Shown here in pieces: positions 35,110-51,513 of a DNA stretch of 64,000 nucleotides. Where the stretch lies: assembly GCF_003583725.1 (NCBI RefSeq), contig NZ_QXTF01000001.1, positions 682,001 to 746,000 of the forward strand, given 5' to 3'. The stretch's first letter is position 1. Every line of letters starts with the position of its first letter. A program made the position numbers and the translations under genes. The DNA comes from Sphingomonas edaphi (lineage in GTDB: Bacteria > Pseudomonadota > Alphaproteobacteria > Sphingomonadales > Sphingomonadaceae). Under the pieces are notes generated by a model, which did no database searches, was not told the origin of the DNA, and worked only from the letters and a program-made list of their open reading frames with translations.

Positions 35110-35206
35110 GGCGCAAATCGACGAATGATGAAACCGCTTGGGACTTCATGCATTTGTAATTCCGATGAATATCGAACGTCCCCTTTATGCGAGGACGGAA
35201 GACGCG

Positions 35207-35341
35207 ATGAAGCGGCCCATCAGCGACAGCGACCTTCCGCCAACGCAGGCTGCCCTTTCGGCCGCGCTTCGGCGCGCCTTCGCCCCGCCGGTGAACGGGG
35301 CGAATGACGAATTCGAGGCGCTGTTGAAAAAGCTTGGGTGA
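35207..35341 (+). CDS. Small hypothetical protein beside ecfG
   Basis: A 44-residue protein from the ATG at 35207, with GAGGACGGAAG 6-16 nt upstream. It begins MKRPISDSDLPPTQ and contains a likely helix (AALSAALRRAFAPP) ending EFEALLKKLG. An in-frame ATG at 35165 would add 14 residues. It is not NepR: it lacks the GRALRxxYDxxL core. It is convergent with ecfG with only three bases between the stop codons. I recognise no family; it may be real because of the ribosome-binding sequence and sphingomonad-like composition, but the length makes this uncertain. Confidence 0.45.
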   Translation: MKRPISDSDLPPTQAALSAALRRAFAPPVNGANDEFEALLKKLG

Positions 35342-35344
35342 CGC

Positions 35345-36055
35345 TCAGCCGCGATCGCGGCTGAGCTCATCCACTTCGCCCATGATTTCCTGAAGGGCCG
35401 ACTTATCAGGATCGGTCTTGTGCTGCCGTCGTGACGGCAGCTTTCCACCAGAGAGCAACGCCTCGAGTGCCACACGTCCCCGGGCGACCCGGCTCTTGAT
35501 CGTGCCCACCGCACATCCGCAGATTTCGGCCGCCTCCTCATAGGCGAAGCCGCCCGCACCGACGAGAATCAAGGCCTCACGCTGTGGCTGTGGCAAGTGC
35601 AGCAGCGCACGCTGCATGTCGCCAAGCTCGACATGGCGGTCCTGACTCGCAGGCGCCGCTAGGATTTTCGCCGCGGTGACATCGTCCCACTCCCCCTTGA
35701 AGCGTGCGCGACGCATCTGGCTCAGGAACAGGTTTCGAAGGATGATGAAGGTCCATGCCCGCATGTTGGTTCCAGCCTGGAAACGCTTGCGCGCGGCCCA
35801 CGCCTTCAGCAACGTTTCCTGAACAAGGTCGTCAGCAAGATCGCGGCTGCCGGATAGGGAGCGGCCAAAGGCACGCAGGTGCGGAATTACCTGGCCGAGT
35901 TGTTCCTTGAATTCATCGTCGGGTAGCGGAATGGGTTCGGGGCGTACCCCGTCCTCGGCCTCAATTTGCTGTTCGTCGCTCACTGAAACCCGCCCCGATT
36001 CGGCATCGACGGAATCGACCGCCACCGCCTTTTGATACGCACCGATGCTCTCCAT
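35345..36055 (-). CDS. ecfG: General stress response ECF sigma factor EcfG
   Basis: A 236-residue sigma factor of the ECF15/EcfG group that directs RNA polymerase to GGAAC-N16/17-CGTT promoters of the alphaproteobacterial stress response. Region 2 spans about residues 50-120 (LADDLVQETLLKAWAARKRF, then MRAWTFIILRNLFLSQMRR), and region 4 about 145-205 (PQPQREALILVGAGGFAYEEAA and GTIKSRVARGR). The acidic 40-residue N-terminus is an extension. I chose the ATG at 36053-36055; the TTG one codon earlier is less likely. It is the second gene after a 46-codon membrane protein, and both lie behind a perfect EcfG promoter, implying positive autoregulation. Confidence 0.93.
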   Translation of the reverse strand: MESIGAYQKAVAVDSVDAESGRVSVSDEQQIEAEDGVRPEPIPLPDDEFKEQLGQVIPHLRAFGRSLSGSRDLADDLVQETLLKAWAARKRFQAGTNMRAWTFIILRNLFLSQMRRARFKGEWDDVTAAKILAAPASQDRHVELGDMQRALLHLPQPQREALILVGAGGFAYEEAAEICGCAVGTIKSRVARGRVALEALLSGGKLPSRRQHKTDPDKSALQEIMGEVDELSRDRG

Positions 36056-36067
36056 CAATTTAGGGTG

Positions 36068-36208
36068 TCAGCGCGCGATGAACAATATGAGCGCGAAAAT
36101 CGCCACGACGAGCAGCAACCCGACGCCGAGGACGACCCGGGTCACATGCGGGGTCGCTCCCGCCCGAGCTTCGGTAGTCGTCAAATGTTCAGGCTGGCCG
36201 TCTGTCAT
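36068..36208 (-). CDS. 46-residue single-pass membrane protein before ecfG
   Basis: Found by translating the minus strand between phyR and ecfG. The product begins MTDGQPEHLTTTEARAG, followed by PHVTRVVLGVGLLLVVAIF and ends LILFIAR. It has a polar N-terminus of about 22 residues and one membrane helix of about 21. GGGGG is 5-9 nt before the ATG. Its stop is 12 bp before the ecfG ATG, so the two are probably cotranscribed from the EcfG promoter upstream. Function is unknown; small membrane proteins of this build are common beside sphingomonad sigma factors in my memory, but I cannot verify this. Confidence 0.65.
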   Translation of the reverse strand: MTDGQPEHLTTTEARAGATPHVTRVVLGVGLLLVVAIFALILFIAR

Positions 36209-36245
36209 GAATCCCCCAACAGAGAAAAGAAAGTTCGAAGGTTCC

Positions 36246-36271
36246 AACGCCGCGGAGTCAGGCGCGGTTCC
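36246..36271 (-). promoter_or_regulatory. EcfG-dependent promoter of the membrane protein-ecfG operon
   Basis: On the minus strand GGAAC (36267-36271) and CGTT (36246-36249) are separated by exactly 17 nt, a perfect match to the EcfG consensus. Transcription would start about 30 bp before the ATG at 36208. The region also holds an 11-bp inverted repeat, AAGGTTCCAAC (36238-36248) with GTTGGAACCTT (36278-36288), enclosing the promoter. Confidence 0.85.
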
Positions 36272-36307: not shown

Positions 36308-37108
36308 TTAGGCCGCGGGTACCGTCGCGGCGTCGAAAAACAGCGCTTGGCTAATCGCTGCCTTGACCGTCGACCGCTGGAACGGCTTGGTGATGAGGAA
36401 CGTCGGCTCGGGGCGCGTGCCGGTCAGCAACCGCTCAGGGAACGCCGTGATGAAGATTACTGGCACCGAAAATTCGGCAAGGATGTCTTTCACCGCATCG
36501 ATGCCTGAGCTGTCGTCCGCCAGCTGGATATCGGCCAGTACGAGGCCCGGGGGCGATTTGCGGGCCTGCGCAACAGCTTCGTCGCGCGTCACAGCGACGC
36601 CGGTGACATTATGGCCCAGGTCGCGAACGATTGATTCAATATCCATTGCGATGATCGGCTCGTCCTCGATGATCAACACGTCGGCGTGAGTTTGGCGCTC
36701 AATTTCCGACATGGCTTCCGCAACCAGGCTGTCGACGTCGTCGGGCGACGCGGAAATCAGATAGGCGGCATCCTCGCTGGAAAAGCCTTCTAGGCTGGTA
36801 AGCAGCAGCGCTTGCCGCGAAAGCGGCGTTATCCGCGACAGGCGCGCCTGCGCGATGCCCTCTGCGCCGGCCAGGTCCATCGTCGGCTCCTCGCCTTCCT
36901 CGATATTAGCGCTGGACCAGATGGCGTGGAAGGTACGGTACAAACCAAGTCGCGGATCGACTTCGCGCGGAAATTCTTCCGGTGAGGCGACAATGGTTTC
37001 CAAGGTCGCGCGGACGAATGCATCGCCGTGCTGCTGGCTGCCGGTCAGCGCGCGCGCATAACGACGGAGGAAAGGCAGGTGCGGTGCAAGTTCCTGGCCA
37101 AGCGACAT
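36308..37108 (-). CDS. phyR: Anti-anti-sigma response regulator PhyR
   Basis: A 266-residue regulator of the general stress response. Residues 1-135 form a sigma-like domain resembling EcfG regions 2 and 4 (AFVRATLETIVASP, SRITPLSRQALLL, FSSEDAAYLI). Residues 142-260 form a receiver domain with the acidic pocket IIEDEP, phosphoacceptor D193 in LADIQL, conserved T221 and K241. The sequence FITAFPERLLTG matches the FATGUY receiver type specific to this system. When phosphorylated, the sigma-like domain binds NepR and frees EcfG. The gene is divergent from nepR with a 302-bp gap and lies upstream of the EcfG promoter of ecfG. Confidence 0.96.
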   Translation of the reverse strand: MSLGQELAPHLPFLRRYARALTGSQQHGDAFVRATLETIVASPEEFPREVDPRLGLYRTFHAIWSSANIEEGEEPTMDLAGAEGIAQARLSRITPLSRQALLLTSLEGFSSEDAAYLISASPDDVDSLVAEAMSEIERQTHADVLIIEDEPIIAMDIESIVRDLGHNVTGVAVTRDEAVAQARKSPPGLVLADIQLADDSSGIDAVKDILAEFSVPVIFITAFPERLLTGTRPEPTFLITKPFQRSTVKAAISQALFFDAATVPAA

Positions 37109-37410
37109 GTAGAAAACACTCCCCTCAAAATTCCAAAACGATACGCACCCGTATTGGGCGCGTCGCCGGTACGGTGCAACCCTGGCCGCCGCTGCAACGC
37201 GCCGTCACCATGGTGCAACACCCTTTGCCCCGACTTGCTGAAGTGTGGAACAAAGCACCGGCGATTTGGTTTCCATGCTAATTCGCCGTTCACGCTGCCC
37301 GGATTGACGGGGCGCCAACGCGGCGGATAGGTGCTGCTTCTCTTCCGTCGGCCGAAAGGCTGCGTGGCGATAATGCGCTGAGTGAGTGACTTGAATTGAG
37401 GAAGGCGCAT
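37109..37410. promoter_or_regulatory. Intergenic region between divergent phyR and nepR, weak EcfG-like site
   Basis: The 302-bp gap must carry the promoters of phyR (minus) and nepR-phyP (plus). On the plus strand GGAAC (37247-37251) is followed after 16 nt by GGTT, three of four bases of the CGTT box and one base short in spacing. Read on the minus strand the same stretch gives GGAAA and TGTT with 17 nt between, so it is roughly symmetrical. A direct repeat GGTGCAAC occurs at about 37172 and 37212, and a small inverted repeat ATACG-CACC-CGTAT at 37141-37154. None is decisive. Confidence 0.35.
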
Positions 37411-37617
37411 ATGCTTGCGCGCGAGGGGGACGAGAGGTTGAGTGGGACCAGTAAAGCCGATGGCCGCCGCGACAACGCCGGGGCCGGCTCTCCCGACAAA
37501 AAGAAGCGGAAAGACAAGCAGGGCAGCGTCGGGCGCGCCCTTCGCACCGTCTATGACGAGACCTTGCGGGAGGATGTCCCCAAGGATTTCCTCGACCTAC
37601 TCGGCAAGCTCGACTGA
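37411..37617 (+). CDS. nepR: Anti-sigma factor NepR
   Basis: A 68-residue protein that sequesters EcfG in unstressed cells. The charged, disordered N-terminal half (KKKRKDKQG) leads to the conserved two-helix core GSVGRALRTVYDETLRED followed by VPKDFLDLLGKLD, which fits the NepR family. I chose the ATG at 37411 because GAGGAAGG lies 6-13 nt upstream; an earlier TTG at 37396 is in frame but without such a site. The phyP-like kinase gene starts 3 bp after its stop, so the negative regulator and the likely PhyR phosphatase are cotranscribed. Confidence 0.93.
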   Translation: MLAREGDERLSGTSKADGRRDNAGAGSPDKKKRKDKQGSVGRALRTVYDETLREDVPKDFLDLLGKLD

Positions 37618-37620
37618 CAC

Positions 37621-39177
37621 GTGGCGCGGGACATCCCGCGTATGATCGACAACGTGCCCAACGCCTTTGGCCGGCTGCCGACGCCGGCGAAACTGCTGCT
37701 CATCATCAGCTTGGCCCTGCTGCCGATAGGTCTCGCCAGTGCATGGTCGGCAAAGCGCGGACTCGATGCCGCGAACGCAGCGACCAATGGCCGAGCGCAA
37801 GACCAGGCGCTTGTCGCCAACGAAGCGATGGGCATGCTCATTGCGCGCAACACGCTGGCGGCTCGCGTCGCGGCCAACGCCGTGCTTTCCCGCGGCACAC
37901 CCCAGCCCTGCAGCGAAGCGCAGCGCATCCTTGCGATCACGCCTGCCGTTGCGCGCGAGTTTACGCTGGTCGATGCCGACGGGACACCGATTTGCACCGT
38001 CGGCGACATGTCTCCCCGCGCCAATATCCGCGTCGCGCCAGGCGATCTGCGGCTGTGGGTCTCGCCGGCGAGAGATGCGATCTACGTCCGGGCCGGTGTG
38101 ATCGGCGGCGCTGCTACCGTCCGGATCTCCGCCGCCGAGCTAAAGGATGCGATTGACGCGCGGGGCCTCGACATCATGGGAGCTTCGCTCATCGCCGACG
38201 GCGAGGAAGTGGTCATCATCCCTGGCGACCACCGCCCTGGCGAATATTCCACTACCCTGCCGCTCGCTTCGGGCAAAATATTGTCCCGGCTTATCGTCGA
38301 TCGCCCGCAGGTGTCGACGATCGAGCGCCTGTTCATCTTCCTGCCGCTGCTTATGTGGGTCGCCGCCGCGGTGGTCAGCTGGTGGATGGTCCACCGCTAC
38401 CTGATCCGCCCGCTCCGCCGGCTGCAGCGTGCCGTCGCCGACTTCCAGCCCGGATACGACAGCACGCTCGTCCTGCCGCCTGGCCTAGGCCCGGCAACCG
38501 AGATCCATGAACTTGGCGGCGCGTTCCAGCGGGCCGTCGACCGGATCGAGGGCGCCGAACGCGAGGCACTCGAAGCGCTGGAAGGACAGCGCCGCCTAGT
38601 CCGCGAAGTGCACCACCGCGTGAAGAACAATCTGCAGGTCGTCGCCTCACTGCTCAGCATCCACGGGCGCAGCGCTGCCCAACCTGAGGCGCAGGCCGCC
38701 TACTCCGCAATTGGCAGGCGCGTCGACGCGCTATCGGTCGTCCACCGCAACCACTATGCGGAGCTTGAGGAGAATCGCGGCATCGCGCTCCGCCCCCTGC
38801 TCAATGAATTGGCCGCCGGGTTGAAGGGCAGTGCGCCCAAGGAAGCTCGCGGCACCGCGATTGACCTCGACCTCGAAACCGCCTTCACGACCCAGGACGT
38901 TGCGGTCGCCGCAGCGTTCCTGATAACTGAAATTGTCGAGTTCGCGATGCTGCGCCACCCAGGCGACCCGATCGACATTTCGCTCCGTCGAATTGATGCG
39001 CTCACCGCGTCGCTGTCGCTGTCATCGTCGGTGCTGCTTCCCGACGACGAAGCGCCCGACGTCGCCAAGGTCCAGTTCGAGCGAATCATCGAGGGCCTCG
39101 CCCGCCAACTACGCTCACCGCTTGATCGGCGGCTCGGGCGATACACCGTTACCCTGCCCGTATTTCCGGATTCCTAA
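37621..39177 (+). CDS. phyP: Degenerate HisKA_2 sensor kinase, probable PhyR phosphatase PhyP
   Basis: A 518-residue membrane sensor. TM1 is about residues 24-42, a periplasmic region follows to about 235, TM2 is 237-256 and a HAMP-like linker reaches 310. The phosphotransfer domain has EVHHRVKNNLQVVASLL, with the acceptor histidine at about H332. The catalytic domain looks broken: where the N box should read NELVTNA the sequence is LITEIVEFAML, and there is no DxGxG box before the end. This matches PhyP of Sphingomonas, known from the literature as a negative regulator that dephosphorylates PhyR. The start could be GTG 37621 or ATG 37642. Confidence 0.82.
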   Translation: MARDIPRMIDNVPNAFGRLPTPAKLLLIISLALLPIGLASAWSAKRGLDAANAATNGRAQDQALVANEAMGMLIARNTLAARVAANAVLSRGTPQPCSEAQRILAITPAVAREFTLVDADGTPICTVGDMSPRANIRVAPGDLRLWVSPARDAIYVRAGVIGGAATVRISAAELKDAIDARGLDIMGASLIADGEEVVIIPGDHRPGEYSTTLPLASGKILSRLIVDRPQVSTIERLFIFLPLLMWVAAAVVSWWMVHRYLIRPLRRLQRAVADFQPGYDSTLVLPPGLGPATEIHELGGAFQRAVDRIEGAEREALEALEGQRRLVREVHHRVKNNLQVVASLLSIHGRSAAQPEAQAAYSAIGRRVDALSVVHRNHYAELEENRGIALRPLLNELAAGLKGSAPKEARGTAIDLDLETAFTTQDVAVAAAFLITEIVEFAMLRHPGDPIDISLRRIDALTASLSLSSSVLLPDDEAPDVAKVQFERIIEGLARQLRSPLDRRLGRYTVTLPVFPDS

Positions 39178-39229: not shown

Positions 39230-39255
39230 GGAACCGGTTTCGAAAAGCAGGCGTT
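39230..39255 (+). promoter_or_regulatory. Orphan EcfG-dependent promoter
   Basis: GGAAC (39230-39234), exactly 17 nt, then CGTT (39252-39255): a second perfect EcfG promoter, on the plus strand 53 bp after the phyP-like gene. A T7 run at 39213-39219 just before it may end the nepR-phyP transcript. No plus-strand protein-coding gene lies downstream; everything from 39303 to the right edge is on the minus strand. The predicted start of transcription is near 39260. Confidence 0.8.
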
Positions 39256-39259
39256 CTAC

Positions 39260-39358
39260 AGTTCGGATAGTGACCTTTTGCCCCCCCGCTCTCGCTATCC
39301 GATTAAATGGGCCCGGAACCGCCAACCCTCCCCCCCCCCGGTGGCGTTTCCGGGCCCA
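39260..39358 (+). ncRNA. Candidate stress-induced small RNA with two C-rich loops
   Basis: The sequence that the orphan EcfG promoter would transcribe folds into two hairpins. Hairpin 1 pairs 39263-39273 with 39292-39302 (11 bp, one G-U) and has an 18-nt pyrimidine-rich loop containing C7 (39281-39287). Hairpin 2 pairs 39309-39324 with 39342-39357 (15 of 16 bp) and has a 17-nt loop containing C10 (39330-39339). C-rich loops pair with G-rich Shine-Dalgarno sequences in several alphaproteobacterial small RNAs, including Caulobacter GsrN, which also depends on the stress sigma factor. Hairpin 2 is antisense to the last codons of tatC. The 3' end is uncertain because no T-tract follows. Confidence 0.55.
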
Positions 39359-40148
39359 CATTCGTCCGGGGCTCTTCGATGACAGCATCGGGATTTGAGA
39401 CGGCACGGCGCGAGGCGCGCCAATGCGTGACGCGGATCGCCAGAATCGCAAACTCGTAAAGCGCATACAGCGGCACAAGCATCAGCAGCATCGACACCAC
39501 GTCTGGTGGTGTCAGTACCGCCGATACGCCCGCTGACGCCACGATCGCGTATCGGCGCGAACTGGCCAGTTGCTCGCGGGTGACGACACCCGCCCGCTCC
39601 AGCACCATCAACAACACCGGCAACAGGAAGGCGACACCGAACCCGAATAGGAACCGGGTGACGAAGTTCAGGTAATTGCCAATCGCAGGCAACGCTTCCT
39701 GCGTCACGCCGCCGACATTTCCTTCAAACCCCAGCAGGAACTTCAACGCCCAGGGCATTGCGATGAAATAAGCGAAGGACGCCCCCGCCGCGAAGAAAAA
39801 GGGCGTCATGACCAGGAAGGGCAAGAATGCCTTCTTCTCGGCCTTGTAGAGACCGGGCGCCACGAACCGCCAGATCTGGGTCGCCAGCACCGGAAAGCTG
39901 ACCATCATGGCCGCGAAGAAGGCGACCTTCACCTCGACGAAAAACGCTTCAAAAATGTCCGTGTAGATCAGCTTTCCCTGGCCCGCCGCCAGCAGCGGTT
40001 GCACCAGCACAGCAAAGATCGGCTTGGCAAAATAGAGGCAGGCGAAGAAGGCCGCCATCAACGCCGCCACGCACCACAGCAGGCGGCGGCGAAGCTCAAT
40101 CAGATGCTCCAGCAAGGGCGCCTTGCTGTCGTCGATGTCCCTAATCAT
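39303..40148 (-). CDS. tatC: Twin-arginine translocase subunit TatC
   Basis: A 281-residue protein with six membrane helices that recognises twin-arginine signal peptides together with TatB. Conserved features are the cytoplasmic N-terminus KAPLLEHLIELRRRLL, the first periplasmic loop with its FEAFFVEVKVAFFA, and FLPFLVMTPFFFAAG. The C-terminal tail after helix 6 ends in a Pro/Gly-rich stretch encoded by a run of ten G bases (minus strand), which is prone to frameshift errors but affects only the last dozen residues. The ATG overlaps the tatB stop as ATGA. Confidence 0.96.
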   Translation of the reverse strand: MIRDIDDSKAPLLEHLIELRRRLLWCVAALMAAFFACLYFAKPIFAVLVQPLLAAGQGKLIYTDIFEAFFVEVKVAFFAAMMVSFPVLATQIWRFVAPGLYKAEKKAFLPFLVMTPFFFAAGASFAYFIAMPWALKFLLGFEGNVGGVTQEALPAIGNYLNFVTRFLFGFGVAFLLPVLLMVLERAGVVTREQLASSRRYAIVASAGVSAVLTPPDVVSMLLMLVPLYALYEFAILAIRVTHWRASRRAVSNPDAVIEEPRTNVGPETPPGGGRVGGSGPI

Positions 40149-50097: not shown

Positions 50098-51480
50098 TTA
50101 CTGATTATTCTGGCGATTGAGGAAGCGCGGGATATCCAGCGGCTCGCGGCGGAAACCGGGGGCCGGCTCATCCTCGACCTTCGCCTGGGCTGCGCCGCGG
50201 GCAATGTTCGACATGCGCTCGAACAAGGTGCCACTTTCACGAGCAACCTGTTGCGGAGCGCCGGTGGTGCCCGTCGCCGCCAGATCGTCTTCGTCGGCCG
50301 GGGGGGCAATCGGCGTTCCAATGACCGGATCAGCAAGAATATCCTCGCTATCGAGCAGCAGTTCATCGCCAGCCTCGTCGGTCAGGTCGAGCGGCTCGTC
50401 GTCGACGATCTCGGCCTTCGGCTCAGGAGCGGACGACGGCGCGGGAGCAACGGCGGCCGGACGCGTCGTAGTTGGGAATGTAAACACCTTGCCTTGCGTC
50501 GGCTGCGCGGCAACCTCAGCTTCGATACCGGTGGCAACGACCGAAACGCGGATCTTGCCGTCCAGGCTGTTGTTGAAAGCGCTGCCCCAGATGATGTTGG
50601 CGTCCGGATCCACCAGCTCCTTGATGTGACTGGCCGCTTCGTCGACCTCCATAAGGCGCATGTCCTCGCCGCCGGTGATCGAAATGATGACGCCCTTCGC
50701 GCCCTTCATGCTGACGCCGTCGAGCAGCGGATTCGAGATCGCCTTTTCGGCGGCTTCGATTGCACGATTGTCGCCCGACGCTTCGCCGGTTCCCATCATC
50801 GCCTTGCCCATCTCGCCCATAACCGAGCGGACGTCGGCAAAATCGAGGTTGATAAGGCCGGGCATGACCATCAGGTCGGTGATTCCGCGCACACCTTGCT
50901 GGAGCACCTCGTCCGCCATCTCGAACGCTTCCTTGAAGGTCGTTTCCGATGTGGCGAGGCGAAACAGGTTCTGGTTCGGGATGACGATCAGCGTATCGAC
51001 ATGCTTCTGCAACTCTTCGATGCCCGCATCTGCCGAACGACCGCGGCGGGTTCCCTCGAAGGCGAACGGCTTGGTAACGACGCCGACGGTCAGGATGCCC
51101 TTATCACGCGCTGCCTTCGCGATCACCGGCGCGGCACCGGTACCTGTGCCGCCACCCATGCCAGCGGCGATAAAACACATGTGCGCTCCTTCCAGCGAGC
51201 GCTCGATTTCCTCGATCGTTTCTTCGGCGGCGGCGCGGCCTATTTCCGGACGGCTGCCCGCGCCGAGGCCCTGGGTGATCTTGAGGCCTAGCTGGATCCG
51301 CTGGTCGGCGGCCGACGCATTCAACGCCTGCGCATCAGTGTTGGCGACCAGGAATTCGACACCCTGAACGTCCGAGCGAATCATGTTAGCGATGGCGTTT
51401 CCGCCCGCGCCCCCGACGCCGATGACACTGATCCTCGGGCGAAGCTCGTCGACTTCCGGCCGGATGAAATCAATGCTCAT
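50098..51480 (-). CDS. ftsZ: Cell division GTPase FtsZ
   Basis: A 460-residue tubulin homologue that forms the Z ring. The GTP-binding loop is [10 protein letters not shown] near residue 21 and the tubulin signature is GGGTGTG at residues 109-115; the synergy loop [11 protein letters not shown] carries the catalytic aspartates. After residue 320 comes a disordered linker of about 115 residues with many Pro and Ala, then the conserved C-terminal peptide [13 protein letters not shown] that binds FtsA. The ATG has GGGGAGGGG about 8 nt upstream. It ends the dcw cluster but is separated from ftsA by 585 bp with its own GANTC-rich upstream region. Confidence 0.98.
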
Positions 51481-51513
51481 GGATGAACCCCTCCCCTGTC
51501 GCGCGGGCGCGTT

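Follow-up and report, generated by a model that had tools for sequence, protein, structure and literature searches.

What does an EcfG-type promoter transcribe where no protein-coding gene follows it? This question is raised by a site within the 64,000-nucleotide stretch of Sphingomonas edaphi DNA analysed here (the window), for which the original prediction proposed a stress-sigma-dependent small RNA with two C-rich loops. The perfect promoter that it described, GGAAC-N17-CGTT at 39230..39255 on the plus strand, is confirmed in the sequence (GGAAC at 39230-39234, CGTT at 39252-39255) and fits GGAAC-N17-20-GTT, the motif that the EcfG-dependent genes of S. melonis Fr1 yielded (PMC6599016). Taken alone, the string is weak evidence for a gene; the exact pattern occurs twice in the window against 0.51 expected occurrences, and 9 of 100 shuffles reach two. 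Its other occurrence (36246-36271, minus strand) lies upstream of ecfG, where a 59-aa ORF whose end is hydrophobic begins (36068-36247). We accepted the observation as real because the element and its promoter are conserved among relatives, and not for the promoter string alone.

The switch formed by PhyR, NepR and EcfG is well established, and its genes lie next to the promoter. The ecfG-type sigma factor gene (35345..36058, minus strand; Pfam Sigma70_r2 and Sigma70_r4_2) owes its name to its position next to nepR and phyR, the latter (36308..37108, minus strand) matching PhyR_sigma2 (7.2e-27), PhyR_sigma-like and Response_reg. The two neighbours named in the original prediction, nepR and a phyP-like gene, are borne out by Pfam matches to NepR (37396..37617, plus strand; 1.2e-9) and HisKA_2 (37621..39177, plus strand; 1.4e-17), the second being a PhyP/PhyT-like HisKA_2 histidine kinase gene upstream of the RNA. 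On the other side, tatC (39303..40148, minus strand; Pfam TatC, E 2e-69) has its 3' end antisense to hairpin 2 in the window strain. A 67-aa ORF beside ecfG (35138-35341, plus strand), without a Pfam match, ends in FEALLKKLG, which by eye is slightly reminiscent of a NepR tail.

As aligned by covariance models, the putative small RNA gene spans 39261..39371 on the plus strand, with both ends predicted and the 5' end falling at about 39261-39263. The two stable C-loop hairpins that had been proposed downstream of the promoter are there, with their coordinates and C runs. Hairpin 1 (39263..39302, plus strand) has an 11-bp stem (arms 39263-39273 and 39292-39302) and a loop of 18 nt that contains C7 (39281-39287). 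Hairpin 2 (39308..39358, plus strand) has a 17-nt loop with C10 at 39330-39339, and its stem contains the single mismatch first reported, although a recount gives 17 positions instead of 16. The minimum free energy is −49.8 kcal/mol, compared with a shuffle mean of −33.5 (sd 3.2, z −5.1), and none of 200 shuffles is as stable.

In all 123 copies of the element that we collected, the first run of at least four C, read from the sequence, is 4-8 long, and it is 6-8 long in 118 of them. The run in the second-loop region is 5-17 long across the same copies, its exact length being variable. Such changes in length (4-8 and 5-17 over 123 copies) in runs that stay C-rich are what would be expected of slippage-prone tracts. 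Hairpin 2 probably doubles as the terminator. In the 13 nt past its stem there are 2-9 T residues (mean 5.1) across the 62 rows of the structure-fitted alignment described below; the window strain has just 3, a poor U tract, which counts against our best explanation.

The element is almost certainly a genuine RNA gene that has been conserved. When 197 related genomes were searched with its DNA, 80 matched: 69 of the 71 in the window's genus, counting its own, and 11 of the other 126. Identities within the genus reach 98% over about 100 nt, and one genome with a fragmented assembly (G003) had two matches. Among the tatC loci of the best 80 of 134 tatC relatives, 75 carry the full element, two (L012, L014) are cut at contig ends and carry it in part, and three (L035, L041, L059) have no match. 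The loci include those of Sphingomonas melonis, S. paucimobilis, Rhizorhabdus histidinilytica, Sphingomicrobium lutaoense and Sphingopyxis solisilvae. By blastn, the element was found in 104 of 110 loci, 30 of which had been retrieved with the element's own DNA.

Covariance model R1 recovers the element in its own genome with 113.9 bits (E 1.4e-21). In the order- and class-wide runs, whose stricter filters and samples may miss weak members, R1 hit 86 of the 296 order genomes at E<=0.01, and model R2 hit 91 of them, 86 at E<=4e-5. The other 205 of the 296 gave no R2 match at E<=0.01, the RNA being either absent or too divergent in form. Among the 337 class genomes, R2 picked out the own genome, one other from the same family and, weakly, a third (32.6 bits), so that no convincing match lies outside the sphingomonads. 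Genomes with any strong match have one, and second matches are all weak (E 3.7e-4 or worse). A further match of 28 bits in the own genome, lacking a promoter, was taken as a GC-rich hairpin and not as a second copy.

The promoter is retained along with the hairpins. The 123 copies, of which 103 came from blastn and 20 from the model, represent 118 distinct sequences (the cut L012 was left out), and GGAAC-N16-17-xGTT precedes 121 of them, in the CGTT form in 105; its end sits 4-6 nt ahead of the modelled RNA start. Loss of the promoter and both hairpins in close relatives, which would have spoken against the original prediction, is not what we see, given these counts and the matches in 69 of 71 genus genomes. 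The blastn query behind 103 of the 123 copies included the promoter, and 30 of those 103 loci had been retrieved with DNA of the element itself, but the covariance models contain none, and for this reason we count the linkage as independent evidence. Among copies added by the model the promoter is found in 18 of 20, and among weak model matches in none of four. We consider it very probable that transcription of the RNA gene depends on EcfG.

In tblastn searches of the 75 full-element loci among the best 80 of 134, a relative of the kinase was found near the RNA in 72 and of PhyR in 71, whereas NepR, which is short and easily missed, had a relative in 44. In 17 divergent loci, TatC was found in 16, and none of the four stress proteins in 9 within the stretch examined (one, L153, being a short contig end). 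Because of these counts from the divergent loci, the RNA appears tied more firmly to tatC than to the stress genes.

Compensatory changes follow the predicted stems. In an alignment of 48 sequences made with MAFFT and not fitted to the structure (A1), both partners had changed in 17 of 29 stem pairs, and the covariation score was 0.237, compared with 0.131 for shuffled and at most 0.059 for slid alignments. Helix 2 contributes most of this, with both sides changed in 12 of 18 pairs; helix 1 shows such double changes in 5 of its 11 pairs, another 5 are invariant, and the two outermost form in a minority of rows. The structure-fitted alignment A2 (62 rows), which is biased towards the structure by construction, gives 28 of 29 pairs. 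Over 26 pairs (three weak closing pairs omitted), GU occupies 49 cells and AC 11, an asymmetry that favours the plus strand as the RNA. Conservation, covariation and promoter linkage together strongly support the prediction of a stress-sigma-dependent structured small RNA.

Rfam 15 has no match to the window over the gathering threshold, and the best sub-threshold hits of a permissive search, at 12.7 and 12.4 bits, lie on the minus strand. The cuckoo (CcsR) RNAs are a family with C-rich unpaired motifs. They and the AbcR/αr15 small RNAs of Alphaproteobacteria (PMC7143759) resemble the window RNA in having several hairpins and unpaired CU- or C-rich motifs able to match ribosome-binding sites. 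CcsR1-4, however, are drawn in an operon behind an RpoHI/RpoHII promoter in PMC10253847, whereas the window RNA is a single gene with an EcfG-type promoter. SuhB of Sphingopyxis granuli TFA, a known trans-acting small RNA, likewise has a sphingomonad host; it is 61 nt long, Hfq-dependent and tied to growth rate and catabolite repression (PMC6563040). Compared by description only, the two differ in the EcfG-type promoter and poly-C loops seen here, neither of which is described for SuhB in the accessible part of that source. No description of the window RNA was found in Rfam or in the passages of open-access articles that were searched.

The closest functional parallel is GsrN of Caulobacter, which is under EcfG/SigT control and pairs an exposed C-rich loop with G-rich sites of mRNAs (PMC5869019). 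According to the same source, GsrN homologs are usually predicted close to the general-stress locus, although C. crescentus itself is an exception. Those reported from BLASTn belong to Caulobacteraceae only; in Rhizobiaceae there are candidates based on position, and Erythrobacter litoralis apparently has none (PMC5869019). The window RNA shares with GsrN the EcfG-type promoter, the place near the general-stress locus and the C-rich loop, which the fold predicts to be exposed near the 5' end, as in GsrN. It differs in having two poly-C hairpins and in being found only in sphingomonads; in addition, the katG leaders of the genus have no G5 tract (0 of 27). In the stress-sigma-type promoter, the C loop and the locus, the original prediction of a functional analogue agrees with what we see. 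Our model gives no sign of homology, finding nothing convincing beyond the sphingomonads in 337 genomes of the class. It is reasonable to call the RNA GsrN-like in function, a likeness of description that does not imply homology.

From the sequence, its conserved structure, promoter linkage, strand preference and distribution, we infer how the RNA might be transcribed, controlled by EcfG, paired and put to regulatory use. The explanation that we favour, and which is probably right, has this small RNA depend on sigma-EcfG and act in trans, its C loops pairing with ribosome-binding sites rich in G and mostly blocking translation. PhyR would free EcfG from NepR, and RNA polymerase with sigma-EcfG would transcribe a non-coding RNA of about 100-110 nt from the plus strand (39261 to about 39371). 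This RNA would fold into two stable hairpins, the second ending the transcript, with both loops exposing their C runs. The loops would contact the G-rich ribosome-binding sites of target mRNAs, loop to single strand, and the pairing would mostly stop translation. For the mode of action taken by itself, C-loop pairing with G-rich leaders, we lean towards acceptance with somewhat less confidence. Points against the favoured explanation, besides the poor U tract, are the 205 of 296 order genomes with no match, the divergent loci in which no stress gene was found, and the leader comparison and cofolding results given below.

The target suggested by the original prediction was ftsZ. Upstream of the window ftsZ (CDS 50098-51480), the tract GGGGAGGGG (51488..51496, minus strand) is a candidate pairing site for loop 2, although its longest plain G run is 4. 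Across 20 genomes of the genus, 13 ftsZ leaders have G5 or more and 19 have G4 or more; for eleven other genes in the same stretches, G5 or more occurs in 1 of 182 leaders (p 1e-14, uncorrected for relatedness; rows with unclear starts skipped, 3-20 leaders per control gene). In the best 30 of 38 genus ftsZ leaders the counts are 24 of 30 and 30 of 30, but these are the best-matching genomes, and 13 of 20 is the fairer figure. The katG leaders of the genus show no G5 (0 of 27; G4 in 3 of 27, with one further locus in which no start was found). On these counts for other genes and for katG, the G tract is special to ftsZ here, and katG as a target is not supported by its leader sequences.

Outside the genus the pattern fades. 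G5 or more is equally rare in ftsZ leaders of genomes with the RNA (1 of 27, excluding L280, L284 and L286, which have the RNA and misassigned ftsZ starts) and without it (1 of 30, counting as RNA-less G096, weakly matched by both models, and G102, weakly matched by R1), and ftsZ is not supported as a family-wide target. For G4 or more the counts are 12 of 27 against 5 of 30 (p 0.04, uncorrected for relatedness). Nested cofolding, which cannot represent loop contacts, gave no gain with the window ftsZ leader (ddG +0.3; 141 of 200 shuffled leaders did at least as well). The ftsZ suggestion is thus supported within the genus, where ftsZ is a plausible candidate target by its leader sequences, and not across the family. 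That ftsZ is a real target within the genus is possible, at somewhat less than even chances. More doubtful still is the bolder reading of a new stress-RNA family in which two independent poly-C loops mimic the anti-Shine-Dalgarno sequence and grip two G tracts of one leader, the ftsZ ribosome-binding site of the genus having evolved into a G tract that would place cell division under direct general-stress control.

A pattern search in the own genome found GCGGGGGG near ATG at 14 sites, compared with 4 in the control, some of them before plausible ORFs. The most suggestive lies in the leader of an alpha/beta hydrolase, which has two G tracts and is only partly kept in the 29 relatives examined. 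In this leader (L175 1485-1521; own genome C2 near 341077-341097), GGGGAGGG is complementary to loop 2 and GCGGGGGG to loop 1, in antiparallel order. For GGGGAGGG near ATG there were 25 matches, three of them on one tract, against 6 in the control; as real and spurious starts are mixed among them, we drew no target list. The comparison of ftsZ leaders with and without the RNA outside the genus yielded no family-wide mRNA target.

This result speaks for another reading, in which the loops bind a protein and the RNA is a sponge or scaffold, and so do the varying lengths of the C runs (4-8 and 5-17), which would be expected if accessible C were all that mattered. We consider this reading quite unlikely, as GsrN, the nearest functional parallel, pairs its C-rich loop with mRNA (PMC5869019). 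A further reading takes the hairpins as a structured 5' leader or attenuator, through which the EcfG promoter reads past hairpin 2 into a gene for an entericidin-like lipoprotein that the hairpins control. Such a gene lies at most 700 nt downstream on the same strand in 65 of the 75 full-element loci among the best 80 of 134; examples are L028 4316-4516 (minus strand) and, in L016, between tatC and 4538. One of the proteins scored 22.3 bits against Pfam Entericidin, just below the cut-off of 23.3. The gene's start 14 nt past the modelled RNA end in a Sphingopyxis locus (L025) and the 12 of 65 loci where no promoter of its own was found by pattern suit a leader. However, in 53 of 65 loci (from the same best 80 of 134) the gene has its own EcfG-like element, GGAACGA-N-CATT, and in the ten loci nearest the window (L002-L011) it is missing at that place (0 of 10), yet the RNA is kept in the genus at up to 98% identity; nor would an attenuator need conserved C loops. 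This makes a leader unlikely. Table 1 of PMC6599016 includes #1442, a "predicted small secreted protein" that depends on EcfG and has a similar element; we take it to be the entericidin-like gene. A tRNA near tatC was sought in 10 loci and found in none; the gap there carries the entericidin-like gene.

The original prediction also raised an effect on tatC mRNA, and the RNA could be a cis-antisense regulator of tatC or a mere bidirectional terminator between phyP and tatC. In the window the two genes are convergent and the antisense overlap is real, the tatC ORF ending at 39303 within the element. Among the 75 full-element loci (from the best 80 of 134), though, just 7, all near the window, have a tatC frame that extends into the modelled RNA; in two of these it meets only the RNA's 3' tail, and one locus (L007) is counted as overlapping with a frame running 443 nt past the element's near-side end, perhaps through a frameshift. 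A conserved effect on tatC is not supported, given this count and the downstream entericidin-like gene in 65 of 75, and the overlap is probably incidental. Neither an inward promoter nor conserved loops characterise a terminator, and the GU/AC asymmetry favours the plus strand, which leaves both versions very unlikely.

Under the preferred explanation of a trans-acting, EcfG-dependent small RNA, the sphingomonad general stress response would gain a post-transcriptional arm. In S. melonis, the EcfG study confined its scan to the DNA that precedes annotated coding sequences (PMC6599016), and for this reason the RNA gene may have been missed there. In the literature searched, the response is described as a transcriptional switch of PhyR, NepR and EcfG. 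With a conserved RNA beside this switch, a family that is widespread in the environment would have a further, post-transcriptional level of control, through which protein synthesis may be adjusted during stress.
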